Shown here one piece after another: positions 4,779 through 8,917 of a stretch of 8,917 nt of DNA. The stretch covers positions 1-8,917 of the forward strand of contig CAMGET010000033.1 in the NCBI GenBank assembly GCA_946055175.1. The letters run 5' to 3'. A model generated the notes under the pieces. That model saw only the letters and a list, made by a program, of their open reading frames with translations, did not search any database and had not been told where the DNA came from. The position numbers and the translations under genes were made by a program. The stretch comes from an uncultured Roseburia sp. (GTDB lineage Bacteria > Bacillota > Clostridia > Lachnospirales > Lachnospiraceae). Numbering within the stretch: position 1 is the stretch's first letter; every line of letters starts with the position of its first letter.

Positions 4779-4809
4779 AACCTTCACCTTCCATAGTTTT
4801 TTATGACTA

Positions 4810-4838
4810 TAGTGTTTCCGGTTTTTATGTATTTATTC
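4810..4838 (-). promoter_or_regulatory. Sigma-F-like forespore promoter of the spoIIQ-like gene
   Basis: GGAAACACTA (minus strand, 4810-4819) matches every specified position of the sigma-F -10 consensus GGNRANAMTN. GAATA (4834-4838), 14 bases upstream, matches 4 of 5 positions of the -35 GYWTA and overlaps the spoIID stop codon. spoIIQ is a known sigma-F gene in Bacillus and Clostridioides, so position and consensus agree. Initiation would be near 4803, giving a leader of about 25 bases. The consensus comes from Bacillus; its use here is inference. Confidence 0.6.
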
Positions 4839-5732
4839 TTTGATTGTGACTCCTTTATAAAAGTATGTTAAAATTTCCTTATAACTGTATCCTGCTTCCG
4901 CCAGATGCTTTGCCATACTCTGGCTTAGCCCGAACCCGTGTCCCTGACCTAAGGTTACAATCCGCACATCACCGTCAAGCAATGTTAATTCCAAGCAGGC
5001 CGAAGGAAGATTCAGTCTCTTTCGAAAAGTCTCCCCATCATAAACAGTTTGTCCCACCAGGACTTCCAGTACATATCCCGCCGAATCTCTCGCTGTTATC
5101 GTTACATCTGAACTATTTTGCAGTTCTTCTTCCGAGAATAGTAACTTCATCTGTTTTAAAAAGTCTTCTTCTGTCCAGAAAAAAACATTCAGATAGCCTT
5201 CCGCAGTAGTGTCTTCATGGCAGGCGGCACTGCTTAAGTAGGGCATCACATTACTCTTGTAATATTCCCCCATGTCTCTTGTATTTCCGGCACTTGTCTG
5301 ATGATAGGCTGCATAGATGTACTTGTCCTTGTACTGTAGCGTTTCTCCCTCCGTCTCTTTTATGAGTGCCGAAAGTTTTTCATAACAGGCTGCATATTCG
5401 CTCCCCCAGAGTGTCTGCAGTTCTTCCACTTCAAATCCCTGCGGTTCTTCTTCTCCCGCTTCCCTTGCCGCCATCAGATTTGTTCTTGCAATTACACTCT
5501 GTGCCTTAATACATTCCTCCGGCATCTGAATGCTGATTTCCTTTGCCACAATAAGAGGCAGCTTTGCTTCCACTTCTGCAATTTTACTTCCCGGCCTGTT
5601 CATAAGTAAGTCTTCGATTCGAAGTCGTCCCATGAAAGTAGTAAGAAAAACCGGCAGTACACAAAGGAAAATCAATAAAATTAGAAATATATTTACTTTT
5701 TCTTCTAATGTTTTTTTTCTCTTTCTACGCAT
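4833..5732 (-). CDS. spoIID: Stage II sporulation protein D (peptidoglycan lytic transglycosylase)
   Basis: A 299-residue membrane-anchored enzyme that cleaves glycan strands (after stem-peptide removal by SpoIIP) so that the mother-cell membrane can migrate around the forespore. A basic N-terminus (MRRKRKK) is followed by one membrane helix at about 14-33, with the catalytic domain outside. The family signature is clear. AKEIS supplies the conserved Glu (E65, by alignment with the usual SEMP motif), and PEECIKAQSVIARTN (71-85) stands for the common EALKAQAVAARTY. AYHQTSAGNT (142-151) and GQGHGFGLSQ (262-271) are conserved substrate-groove motifs. The KEIS and CIKAQSV variants are slightly divergent but keep the key residues, so the enzyme is probably active. 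The ATG has a GGAGG SD with a 7-T spacer. The SD lies in the 3' arm of the terminator hairpin of the preceding operon. The SpoIIQ-like gene begins 54 bases downstream. Confidence 0.93.
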   Translation of the reverse strand: MRRKRKKTLEEKVNIFLILLIFLCVLPVFLTTFMGRLRIEDLLMNRPGSKIAEVEAKLPLIVAKEISIQMPEECIKAQSVIARTNLMAAREAGEEEPQGFEVEELQTLWGSEYAACYEKLSALIKETEGETLQYKDKYIYAAYHQTSAGNTRDMGEYYKSNVMPYLSSAACHEDTTAEGYLNVFFWTEEDFLKQMKLLFSEEELQNSSDVTITARDSAGYVLEVLVGQTVYDGETFRKRLNLPSACLELTLLDGDVRIVTLGQGHGFGLSQSMAKHLAEAGYSYKEILTYFYKGVTIKE

Positions 5733-5735
5733 AAA

Positions 5736-5777
5736 AAAACCTCCGTGTCTTCACATTATATGTGACACGAAGGTTTT
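5736..5777 (-). terminator. Intrinsic terminator of the rsmA operon, overlapping the spoIID leader
   Basis: Read on the minus strand, AAAACCTTCGTGTC pairs with GACACGGAGGTTTT (14 bp including one U-G). An inner ACAT/ATGT stem surrounds the loop ATA, with the 3-base bulge GAA on the 3' side. The 3' arm runs into a run of seven T (5733-5739) that ends directly at the spoIID ATG. It lies just after the stop codon of the NPYQ-repeat membrane protein. The 3' arm contains the spoIID SD (GGAGG, 5740-5744), and the loop contains a -10 element. Confidence 0.88.
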
Positions 5778-5783
5778 CCATTC
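5755..5783 (-). promoter_or_regulatory. Sigma-E-like promoter of spoIID, buried in the terminator hairpin
   Basis: CATATAAT (minus strand, 5755-5762) matches the sigma-E -10 CATACANT at all but one position. GAATGGA (5777-5783), 14 bases upstream, is a partial match to the -35 KMATATT (first four positions). No vegetative -35 lies at 17 bases, so a sigma-A promoter is less likely although TATAAT is present. Initiation near 5748 would give a leader of roughly 16 bases that lacks the 5' arm of the hairpin, leaving the SD free. spoIID is a sigma-E gene in Bacillus. Confidence 0.5.
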
Positions 5784-5789
5784 AGATTT

Positions 5790-6464
5790 TTAATAAACGA
5801 TTCTCATTGCCATCTCCATTGCCTTGGCAAACACAACGCATACTCCTGCAAATGAAATCAAATAGCAACATACAGTAAAAATGATTGGCACGGTCTTCTT
5901 TTTCTTCAAAAGATGTGCTCTCCAGATAAAGTATGCCGGGCGTAGGAAAATTGCAAATAAAATAGCTCCCGTAATTTTACAATTTGCTTTCGATAGCTGC
6001 ACAATATCAAGTACTAGAAATACAACCGTTACCCAGAATATAACATCACTCAGATAAGAGAGTACCATATAGCCCGGTGTCATCACCAACTGTTCCACTA
6101 TGGTAAATAAATCTTCGAGTCTCTCTGCATAAGCATAGCTATTGCTGGTCAGTACAAAGAGGATAAATGTGATAACCGATGATGCACCAACCAGTGCCAT
6201 TGCAACATTTGCAAAGATGTTCTTAGCCTCTTTTTTTGGCTCTTCATACGGCGTATACTGCTGATACGGATTCTGTTGGTATGGATTTCCCTGGTATGGA
6301 TTTCCCTGATATGGATTTTCCTGATACGGATTTCCCTGATACGGATTCTGCTCCGTGCTATCCTGCTCCTCCTGCATCTGCTGCTGGTAAGCAGTTCTTC
6401 CATACTTTGTACTTGGACGCTGTTCTGTTACTTCTTCTTCGTTGTTTTGATTCATTTCTTCCAT
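5790..6464 (-). CDS. Four-helix membrane protein with N-terminal NPYQx repeats, function unknown
   Basis: A 224-residue protein I do not recognise. The first 80 residues are hydrophilic and rich in Q, E and N, and include six tandem pentapeptides NPYQ(G/E/Q) at residues 40-69, followed by YTPYEEPKK. Four hydrophobic segments follow at about 82-106, 133-157, 165-182 and 191-213. A basic cluster KKKK (187-190) precedes the last helix and the C-terminus is short. The repeats resemble the Pro/Tyr/Gln-rich cytoplasmic tails common on small Firmicute membrane proteins of unknown role; they may bind partners or be purely structural. It is the last gene before a strong terminator and starts 18 bases after rsmA, so it is probably cotranscribed with it. 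The ATG has GGGAG 8 bases upstream. An in-frame ATG at codon 4 is a possible alternative. Base composition resembles the neighbours. Confidence 0.8.
   Translation of the reverse strand: MEEMNQNNEEEVTEQRPSTKYGRTAYQQQMQEEQDSTEQNPYQGNPYQENPYQGNPYQGNPYQQNPYQQYTPYEEPKKEAKNIFANVAMALVGASSVITFILFVLTSNSYAYAERLEDLFTIVEQLVMTPGYMVLSYLSDVIFWVTVVFLVLDIVQLSKANCKITGAILFAIFLRPAYFIWRAHLLKKKKTVPIIFTVCCYLISFAGVCVVFAKAMEMAMRIVY
6258..6347 (-). repeat. Six tandem 15-bp units encoding NPYQx
   Basis: The unit on the minus strand is close to AAYCCRTAYCAGGRA and encodes Asn-Pro-Tyr-Gln plus G, E or Q. Third-position variation (AAT/AAC is rare here; CCA/CCG, TAT/TAC vary) shows the copies are not all newly duplicated. 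The array could change length by slippage without breaking the frame. It also creates long open frames on the opposite strand and in the other frame, which are artefacts. Confidence 0.9.
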
Positions 6465-6482
6465 GATAATATCTCCCTTACT

Positions 6483-7367
6483 TTATCTTTCTTTTTTATC
6501 GGCAAGCTTTTTCCCTACTATATTACTTAGTTTCGCAAATTCTTCTAAGGTCAGTGTCTCACCGCGAATTGTTGCCGGAACACCCAGTTCTTCAATGCTT
6601 TCCTGTATTTCTGTCTTTGAAAGCGGAATGTCCGGTGCATTGCCAAGTCCGTTTGCCAGTGTTTTTCTGCGCTGATTAAAGGATGCACGAATCAATCGGA
6701 ACATCAATTTTTCATTCTCTACCTGCACCGGTGGAGCACTATGTCTGGTCAGTCGAATAACGGCACTTCCCACATTCGGTCTAGGCATAAAACAGTTTGG
6801 CGGAACATTTGCCACAATTTCCGGTTTTGCATAATACTGCACCGCCAGAGATAATGCGCCATAATCCTTGGTTCCCGGTCCCACCTGCATGCGGTCTGCC
6901 ACCTCTTTTTGCACCATAATTGTAATGCTGTCAATCGGCACATGACTTTCAAATAAGCCCATGATAATGGGCGTCGTAATATAATATGGCAGATTAGCAA
7001 CAACCTTTATCGGTCTGCCTCCGTTTTTTTCCTGCGCCAGGCGGTTAATATCCACCTTTAAAATATCCTCGTTGATAACCTCCACGTTATCATATGCACT
7101 TAATGTATCCGCAAGAATCGGAATTAGGTTTTTGTCGATTTCCACCGCAGCCACTTCTCTTGCATTCTCACAAAGATACTGTGTCATGGTTCCGATTCCG
7201 GGACCGATTTCTAAAACAAAGTCATCCTTTGTAATATGAGACTCTTCTATAATCTTATCCAGTACATGGGTATCAATCAAGAAATTTTGTCCGAATTTTT
7301 TCTGAAAATTAAAATTGTATTTCTGCAAAACCGCAATGGTATTTGCCGGAATTCCTAATGTTGCCAT
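6483..7367 (-). CDS. rsmA: 16S rRNA (adenine1518-N6/adenine1519-N6)-dimethyltransferase RsmA (KsgA)
   Basis: A 294-residue SAM-dependent enzyme that dimethylates two adjacent adenines in the 3' hairpin of 16S rRNA late in small-subunit assembly; its loss gives kasugamycin resistance. Family signatures are all present: KKFGQNFL (23-30), SAM motif I LEIGPGIGT (52-60), the acidic residue in AAVEIDK (73-79), INEDILK (98-104), motif IV NLPYY (125-129), FMPRPNVGSAV (193-203) and RASFNQRRKTL (228-238). Length is normal for the family (about 270-300). The related Erm rRNA methylases are excluded by the FxPxPxVxS and FNQRRKTL segments. The ATG has GGAG 5 bases upstream. The preceding gene ends 11 bases before it, and the next begins 18 bases after it, so it sits inside an operon. 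Confidence 0.97.
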   Translation of the reverse strand: MATLGIPANTIAVLQKYNFNFQKKFGQNFLIDTHVLDKIIEESHITKDDFVLEIGPGIGTMTQYLCENAREVAAVEIDKNLIPILADTLSAYDNVEVINEDILKVDINRLAQEKNGGRPIKVVANLPYYITTPIIMGLFESHVPIDSITIMVQKEVADRMQVGPGTKDYGALSLAVQYYAKPEIVANVPPNCFMPRPNVGSAVIRLTRHSAPPVQVENEKLMFRLIRASFNQRRKTLANGLGNAPDIPLSKTEIQESIEELGVPATIRGETLTLEEFAKLSNIVGKKLADKKER

Positions 7368-7808: not shown

Positions 7809-8917
7809 TTATATCTTACCACTTTCTTTCAAAAGTGTATATAAAGTTGGCGTTACGTGGAATTCTTCCATGACTTTTTCCACTTCCGTAAGATATTTTT
7901 TCTTAACGGCTGTCGGAACAACCGGTTTACGGATGGCACGAATCAAAATATTTTTTGGTGTGTGGGCAAAATCCACAAATTCCAAAAGCTGTGTTTTATA
8001 ACCGCAGCACTCCAACAGGTTCGCACGGATGGCATCCGTTGTAAGCGCTGCGAAACGCTCTTTTACAATACCATATCTGGTCAAAAGCGACAAGTCATCC
8101 GTCTGCATCTGCTTATTTAACTCATGCTGACAGCACGGAACCGAAAAAATCATCTTAGCATTCCAGCAGACTGCATTAAAAAGTGCAAAATCGGTAGCCG
8201 TGTCGCAGGCATGCAGGGTGACAACCATATCCACATCAAAGGGTGCTTTAAAGCCATTGATATCGCCCAACTCAAAGTGCAGATTCTCATAGCCATATTT
8301 TCTGCGGTTTCGTTGCATTTTTTTATTACATCTGCCTTTAAATCCAGTCCCAGCATCTGCGCCTTCATGTGACGCACTTCCGTAAAATAGTAATACATGA
8401 TGAAAGTCAGATAGGACTTTCCACAGCCGAAATCGATGATGTGGATTTCATCCTTTTGATAATCTCTGATACCGTCGTCAATCATTTCGATGAAACGGTT
8501 AATCTGCCGGAATTTATCGTACATGGATTTGACTACTTTTCCCTCTTTGGTAAATACCCCCATATCCACTAATGGTGGAATGACCTGGCCTTCTTTTAAA
8601 ATATAATTCTTTTGGCGGTTGTGGTCTTCATATGAAAAATCAGCGGTCTGTGCTTTTCCTTCCGGTACCTGCATCGTTTTGTCCTGCCCGATGTGAGGTG
8701 ATTTTTTTGTTTTATAGGTAATTTTGCCTTTTTTTGATAACAACAGAATATGCTCTTTTTCGGTGTCCCACGCATTCACCTGCAAGTACGCATCCGCAAC
8801 CGTTTCCAATAAATATTGCTCAAGGTCTTTCTGCTCTACGTTATCGTGAAACACCTGCTTCTCGGTGTATTTTGCTGCCTGAAAGTACTCCTTTTTTCGT
8901 TCAATGACGATTTTTTT
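7809..8917 (-). pseudogene. SAM-dependent methyltransferase (Methyltransf_32-like), frameshifted and 5'-partial
   Basis: Two reading frames together give one class I methyltransferase; its start lies beyond the right edge, since the frame is open to 8917. The first part (8917 to about 8300) includes YFQAAKYTEKQVFHDN, a linker VIPPLVDMGVFTKEGKVV, SAM motif [14 protein letters not shown] (8854-frame residues 139-151) and [18 protein letters not shown]. The second frame (about 8300 to 7809) continues [32 protein letters not shown] and [13 protein letters not shown], ending [11 protein letters not shown]. The order of motifs ([24 protein letters not shown]) resembles the Methyltransf_32 family that includes Trm13/METTL25-type proteins. 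The substrate is unknown; RNA is a reasonable guess from that kinship and from rsmA nearby. The join needs one extra base at the AAAA run 8298-8301. It may be a true lesion, a sequencing error, or rescued by slippage. It heads the visible operon. GTG 8852-8854 is internal, not the start. Confidence 0.8.
8298..8324 (-). other. Frameshift site with nearby A7 slippery run
   Basis: On the minus strand the frame reads ATA AAA AAA TGC AAC GAA ACC GCA GAA AAT and then departs from the family pattern. Reading GAA AAA TAT GGC (one more A at 8298-8301) restores it. The A7 run at 8318-8324 is in the phase A AAA AAA expected of a -1 slippery heptamer. A -1 slip there, or one extra A added by RNA polymerase, would also join the two frames, replacing about nine residues (MQRNRR in place of CNETAE). 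Confidence 0.7.

Follow-up and report, generated by a model that had tools for sequence, protein, structure and literature searches.

In phage T4, long early transcripts covering gene e and the I-TevI gene bury the Shine-Dalgarno (SD) sequence in a helix, and late promoters lying in the region of the 5' strand of that helix give rise to RNAs without this strand, which are well translated (PMC3014915, as far as the available part of that paper describes it). In Bacillus subtilis, sigG (spoIIIG) stands behind another operon, and a long hairpin has been proposed to block translation of the RNA reading through from PspoIIG, a hairpin that cannot form in the RNA started at PsigG (PMC5942855, in excerpt). 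As for spoIID itself, in Clostridioides difficile it belongs to the sigma-E regulon and has a sigma-E promoter (PMC3789822, likewise in excerpt).

Spore formers must silence wall hydrolases and other spore genes during growth, though these genes may lie directly behind active ones. A compact leader that blocked read-through at the level of both transcription and translation, and that was opened only by a developmental polymerase, would explain how spore genes can stand in dense clusters. Here, we analyze a candidate for such a leader in a stretch of 8,917 nucleotides from an uncultured Roseburia sp. (referred to as the window throughout). In our judgement it is quite probable that the leader of spoIID in the window acts as a lock against read-through, with the SD placed in the 3' arm of a hairpin, a sigma-E-like -10 motif placed in its loop, and opening brought about by a start at the internal promoter. 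Namely, we infer that RNA arriving from the gene upstream would either end in the seven T of the U-tract or keep its SD folded away from ribosomes, and that sigma-E polymerase would use the promoter inside the hairpin and start near position 5748, yielding a short RNA that lacks the 5' arm and would be translated. The lock would be a double one, consisting of termination or SD masking of the read-through RNA, and it would be released by the internal start.

The spoIID leader in the window

Read on the minus strand, the leader has the order AAAACCTTCGTGTC-ACATATAATGTGAA-GACACGGAGGTTTT-TTT-ATG, in which the 5' arm AAAACCTTCGTGTC starts 12 bases past the stop codon of a 224-aa open reading frame (ORF) and forms 14 bp, one of them G-U, with the 3' arm GACACGGAGGTTTT (Table 1). 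The loop of 14 nt carries CATATAAT, and the run of seven T is made up of the last four T of the 3' arm and the next three, up to the ATG at 5732. A preliminary description of this DNA had named the 14-bp stem, the SD in its 3' arm, the seven T as the spacer and CATATAAT in the loop, all of which direct reading confirmed. It had also proposed that the SD is folded away in read-through RNA and free in the short RNA, and the folding prediction agrees with an SD that is buried in the former and mostly free in the latter, the unpaired probability of the SD in the window being 0.001 in the read-through RNA versus 0.70 in the predicted short RNA, whose 5' leader is 16 nt long. According to RNAfold, the leader RNA, i.e. 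the minus strand, folds with -23.9 kcal/mol (z -4.4), a value equalled by 0 of 200 shuffles, while the plus strand of the same DNA gives a weaker fold of -16.4 (z -3.2; 2 of 200 shuffles equal). What the preliminary description did not contain is GAATGG at 5783-5778, 15 nt ahead of CATATAAT; the putative promoter spacer thus coincides with the 5' arm.

Table 1. Positions of the leader elements and of the genes around them in the window
Feature	Position	Strand	Basis
Putative -35 region GAATGGA	5777..5783	-	Read directly; final A also opens the 5' arm; sigma-E use putative
5' arm AAAACCTTCGTGTC, identical with putative promoter spacer	5764..5777	-	Sequence, fold, covariation in the genus
-10-like motif CATATAAT in loop	5755..5762	-	CATATANT in 26/26 genus leaders; sigma-E use putative
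Predicted transcription start, about 7 nt past the -10 motif	5748..5748	-	Predicted from motif position only
3' arm GACACGGAGGTTTT	5736..5749	-	Sequence and fold
SD of spoIID, GGAGG, within 3' arm	5740..5744	-	Position ahead of ATG 5732
Seven T between SD and ATG, also a terminator-like U-tract	5733..5739	-	Sequence
spoIID, 299 aa, ATG 5732-5730	4833..5732	-	TIGR02669 and Pfam PF08486, above their cut-offs
224-aa ORF, presumed source of read-through RNA	5790..6464	-	No family match
rsmA (ksgA), head of presumed vegetative operon	6483..7367	-	TIGR00755, 4.7e-82, above cut-off

In the window, the 14-bp stem is followed directly by the T run, which is the arrangement by which intrinsic terminators are recognized. 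A terminator scan of the window that allowed loops of 3-8 bases only did not report the spoIID leader hairpin, since its loop of 14 nt exceeds the limit of 8. Concerning the gene itself, its product also matches TIGR02870 (169.7 bits, 9e-50), below the curated cut-off of that family of 234.75.

Two further observations concern other parts of the window. At 4788-4840 on the minus strand, upstream of an M23/SpoIIQ-like gene, there are GAATA and GGAAACACT, about 25 bases apart at most, which resemble a sigma-F promoter. In addition, the frames 7809-8318 and 8150-8854, both on the minus strand, overlap and look like a single methyltransferase gene split by a frameshift or an assembly error, the second of these methyltransferase-like frames matching Methyltransf_32.

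Conservation and covariation in the genus

Out of 62 genomes of the genus searched with the SpoIID protein, 53 gave some match, with a spoIID of the window's kind in 28 of them and weaker matches only, in longer SpoIID-domain proteins, in the remaining 25. Two of the six relatives with a name are uncultured Roseburia sp., and in one of these two SpoIID is 88% identical. We note in passing that genomes of the genus without this spoIID can carry spoIVA, yabP, dpaA and longer SpoIID-domain proteins. Contig ends truncate two of the 28 leaders, which leaves 26 readable ones; their start codons were picked for an upstream GGAG where present, with one TTG start set by hand, and three near-identical pairs are kept separate in the 26 and single in the alignment used below (A1).

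In all 26 readable leaders, the SD is paired in the predicted fold with bases 5' of the CATATA motif, and CATATANT, whose position 7 is variable, stands between the arms. The layout they have in common runs from GAATG or a variant through a CT-rich 5' arm, CATATANT, the SD-bearing 3' arm and a T run to the start codon. The longest T run has between 4 and 7 T, with 6 or 7 in 21 leaders, and at the -35 place, as judged by eye, 20 leaders have GAATG, 2 have GAATA or GAATC and 4 have TCATAA. A sigma-E promoter would have a -10 of the CATA type and a -35 at a suitable distance; the leaders have CATATANT throughout and mostly GAATG at the -35 place, with a spacing of 15 nt in the window. This GAATG differs from the TCATAAA found before spoIIIAA, which counts against the putative sigma-E reading. 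The letters of the sigma-factor consensus motifs were not found in the available part of PMC7438776. Going by the motif only, the promoter is placed in all 26 leaders such that its RNA would lack the 5' arm. A reading of the -10 element as a vegetative TATAAT was ruled out, since position 7 of CATATANT varies among the leaders of the genus.

How specific is this layout? When the motif was required, a gap-free helix test was passed by 22/26 leaders versus 10/520 shuffles, and a relaxed version, in which 3 G-C pairs are required and not 4, by 26/26 versus 15/520. As a control, other starts in the same loci passed the relaxed test in 0/132 cases with the motif and in 17/132 without it. The element was recovered by a covariance model built from 22 leaders in 27 out of 28 genomes with this spoIID, the 28th leader being cut; one of the matches lies on a separate contig, with a SpoIID-like start after it. 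The predicted exposure of the SD follows the same lines, in that its unpaired probability is below 0.2 in the read-through RNA of all 26 leaders and has a median of 0.76 in the short RNA, where it exceeds 0.5 in 20 of 26, an exposure which is moderate. As a separate observation, in five genus loci CCATCC/GGATGG arms surround an A+T-rich stretch before the gene that follows spoIID, and these may form a related leader hairpin.

The pairing is also reflected in covariation. In alignment A1, 94.7% of the cells are paired, where shuffles give 89.0% and slid versions 51.8-73.1%, and 6 of 12 pairs have changed on both sides, a number which 0 of 500 shuffles reached and below which the slid versions stayed. 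On the tree of 25 SpoIID proteins, 10 of whose 22 inner branches are well supported, one counts 13 changes between Watson-Crick pair types, six of them at one pair. Judged by this covariation, the hairpin structure is maintained by selection in the genus. Moreover, there are 34 G-U cells among the pairs and 3 A-C cells, and therefore it is the RNA of the minus strand that is indicated, with the fixed SD and T run adding to the excess. The preliminary description had looked to compensatory changes in relatives for support and to the absence of the stem from close relatives with the gene order retained as evidence to the contrary; in the genus, compensatory changes are present and no readable spoIID leader was seen to lack the stem, all 26 having retained both the hairpin and the -10-like motif.

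The layout in the family and before other genes

For the wider search, the family was taken as Lachnospiraceae, which includes Roseburia. SpoIID was matched in 217 of 299 genomes, and 110 leaders, one per genus, were read, namely the 30 best-returned of the 217 and 80 of the next-ranked having frames of 280-376 aa. Nine of these loci are without a usable SD, and in several others the start falls within the domain; all of them were counted as misses; in every set other than the spoIID leaders of the genus, starts were chosen by SD score. The first helix test was passed by 29/110 family leaders versus 61/2200 shuffles, and the relaxed test by 39/110 versus 102/2200. The strict test, which asks for a T-rich spacer, was passed by 26/110 and failed by 84/110, and the design is for this reason not universal in the family. 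The leader sequences differ widely between genera, and the 26 strict leaders fold with a mean of -23.3 kcal/mol with their own arms versus -14.9 with arms swapped between genera, an advantage which is partly due to the fact that these 26 had been selected for a hairpin. A looser pass/fail version of the swap was non-discriminating, as 464 of 650 swaps still passed. In other families of the class, 6/30 and 3/40 spoIID leaders (9/70) passed the relaxed test, most of them lacking a U-tract; one further case in another family, with a long loop, was noted by eye.

That the same design stands before several other sporulation genes was unforeseen by the preliminary description. The covariance model was trained on spoIID leaders alone, and the matches it gave elsewhere are weak, with E values between 2e-6 and 0.04. 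The 44 best of them (E up to 0.009, with antisense matches to spoIID leaders excluded) lie before dpaA in 11 cases, yabP in 5 and spoIVA, as judged by eye, in 9, with 19 before other genes or none. In the genus, we examined the best 30 of 56 matching genomes for yabP, of 56 for dpaA, of 53 for spoIVA and of 61 for spoIIIAA, as well as, for family spoIVA, the best 30 of 106. With the motif required, the relaxed test was passed before spoIVA by 21/30 of these best-scoring genus loci (two with poor start calls kept as misses) versus 27/600 shuffles, and by 23/30 genera among the best-scoring family loci versus 57/600; before dpaA, two loci whose starts were not found being excluded, it was passed by 18/28 versus 27/560. 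An alignment of the family spoIVA leaders (A2) misplaced the 5' arms, and was hence left out of the pair counts. For yabP, 24/30 loci passed without the motif requirement versus 172/600 shuffles and 1/30 with it, since the motif there is mostly AATATA and CATA occurs in 1/30 only. This yabP count is the weakest of the set, because SD-covering hairpins without the motif are not rare, being found at 17 of the 132 control starts mentioned above, in 35 of 149 genes of a relative and in 8 of 30 spoIIIAA leaders. Namely, in 240 kb of that one relative, 2/149 genes pass with the motif and 35/149 without it, and in the strict test without the motif 2/151 starts do so versus 6/1510 shuffles, one of the two being yabP, in a stretch that was picked by hand. 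The promoter motif of spoIIIAA is similar, and before this gene the relaxed test was passed by 3/30 loci with the motif and 8/30 without. As to predicted SD exposure, the unpaired probability in the read-through RNA is below 0.2 in 5/23 spoIIIAA leaders, and that in the short RNA of dpaA has a median of 0.50.

The window's own genome has the layout before spoIVA (TIGR02836, below cut-off on a cut piece) and spoIIID (TIGR02844, above cut-off), and, as judged by eye, before yabP; dpaA was not found in this genome, which is 68.5% complete. We take spoIID, spoIVA, spoIIID, yabP and dpaA to be mother-cell genes. On balance, we incline to the view that the Lachnospiraceae share a module against read-through, in which the promoter is placed within an SD-burying, often terminator-like hairpin ahead of the gene, in most cases a mother-cell sporulation gene (the five just named) and in some a vegetative one, with the promoter spacer forming the 5' arm and the SD lying in the 3' arm. 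If this is true, a single element of 50 bases shields a developmental gene from the transcription of its neighbours, and it would provide a sequence signature by which genes under such a developmental lock could be found in gut bacteria that have been little studied, as well as a compact insulating promoter design.

Several observations lie at the edges of this picture. Weak model matches also occur before eno, glyA, the beta-phosphoglucomutase gene and thiT and, by eye, before dnaE-like and response-regulator-like genes. Six leaders of non-sporulation genes have a hairpin over the SD, and four of the six have a TATAAT-like motif in the loop or at its edge; because SD hairpins and TATAAT-like motifs precede genes of the eno/glyA type, the layout may extend beyond sporulation genes. 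Three thiT-type leaders, one confirmed as thiT by TIGR02357 and two similar by eye, have an SD-burying hairpin that is possibly the expression platform of a riboswitch. Finally, in three leaders (L070, L327 and L328) the promoter motif lies inside the hairpin and the SD outside it; these hairpins cannot mask the SD for that very reason, and a translational lock leaves them unexplained.

Alternative readings and known systems

The alternative that fares best, though we regard it as unlikely, is that the hairpin is no more than an intrinsic terminator belonging to the upstream gene and brought close to spoIID by the compactness of the genome, with no translational role for the bases it shares with the SD and the promoter. 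It would account for the 14-bp stem and the seven T that follow it, for the long T runs in most genus leaders, and for L070, L327 and L328, where the hairpin holds the promoter and not the SD. A terminator serving only the upstream gene is, however, disfavoured by the neighbourhood, since one would not expect it to accompany spoIID across changed neighbours. What lies upstream in the genus is mostly a membrane protein gene behind rsmA and in two loci rsmA itself, and C-terminal tails resembling that of the 224-aa ORF are seen by eye in 10 of 15 loci compared. In the family, the upstream gene is often that of a carbohydrate phosphorylase (two by Pfam, more by their tails, by eye) or another ORF. 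We had expected murA upstream of spoIID in the family, which was wrong, as ten upstream ORFs compared with Pfam gave 2 carbohydrate phosphorylases, 2 RsmA and 6 without a match. In other words, the hairpin accompanies spoIID despite the changed upstream gene, with the SD still in its 3' arm, and because the neighbour varies we assign the element to spoIID. The strict design was found in 24/80 family leaders with a co-directional upstream ORF and in 0/14 with an opposed one, 16 being undecided (Fisher p 0.018, with crude ORF calls and relatedness ignored).

What is more, there are leaders in which the SD is buried without a good U-tract, among them three family spoIVA leaders, reading GGGGGTATCTTTATG, three yabP leaders and four spoIID leaders, all of which a terminator by itself would not explain. 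As several leaders thus keep the buried SD with a short or missing U-tract, SD masking is probably retained more constantly than termination.

We consider it very improbable that the hairpin is instead a regulated switch, i.e. a riboswitch or the target of a small RNA or a protein, acting on a longer sporulation transcript, rather than a passive lock. SD-burying hairpins with a U-tract behind them commonly serve as expression platforms, and thiT-type leaders are among the weak model matches, both of which can be counted in favour of a switch. Against it, an Rfam search at gathering score gave 0 matches in the window, and the alignable element is about 50 nt long, the stretch from -110 to -58 of the genus leaders having a mean identity of 27% in an ungapped comparison. 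Least probable of all is that a protein binds the inverted repeat as a DNA operator overlapping the sigma-E promoter, with the RNA folding incidental, for although the repeat is nearly symmetrical and encloses the promoter motif, G-U cells far outnumber A-C cells in the genus (which constraint on the SD and T run could explain in part) and the arm sequences vary by gene and genus, unlike those of a shared operator.

Returning to the lock against read-through, its separate elements have counterparts in described systems. The logic of masking the SD in read-through RNA is known from T4 gene e and from sigG, and its use as a module shared by several genes was not found in the open PMC literature searched, as judged from listings alone. 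Like an intrinsic terminator, the spoIID leader has a G+C-bearing stem followed directly by a U-tract behind the upstream gene; it differs in that its loop of 14 nt contains a promoter motif, and in that SD and spacer are provided by its 3' arm and U-tract. The preliminary description had drawn the parallel to T4 gene e, and drawn it accurately as far as the available text of PMC3014915 goes: the logic is the same, and e codes for a lysis enzyme. Gene e, however, is a phage gene with a viral late promoter, and a terminator U-tract is not mentioned in that text, whereas the spoIID leader has a sigma-E-like motif, a promoter spacer identical with the 5' arm, and a layout that recurs before several genes of the host. 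The nearer parallel is sigG of B. subtilis. According to the excerpt of PMC5942855, sigG is read by sigma-F and sigma-G, its hairpin has 20 or more pairs, and an intrinsic terminator is not described there; leaders of the spoIID type, on the other hand, are carried by spoIID, spoIVA, spoIIID, yabP and dpaA of the Lachnospiraceae.
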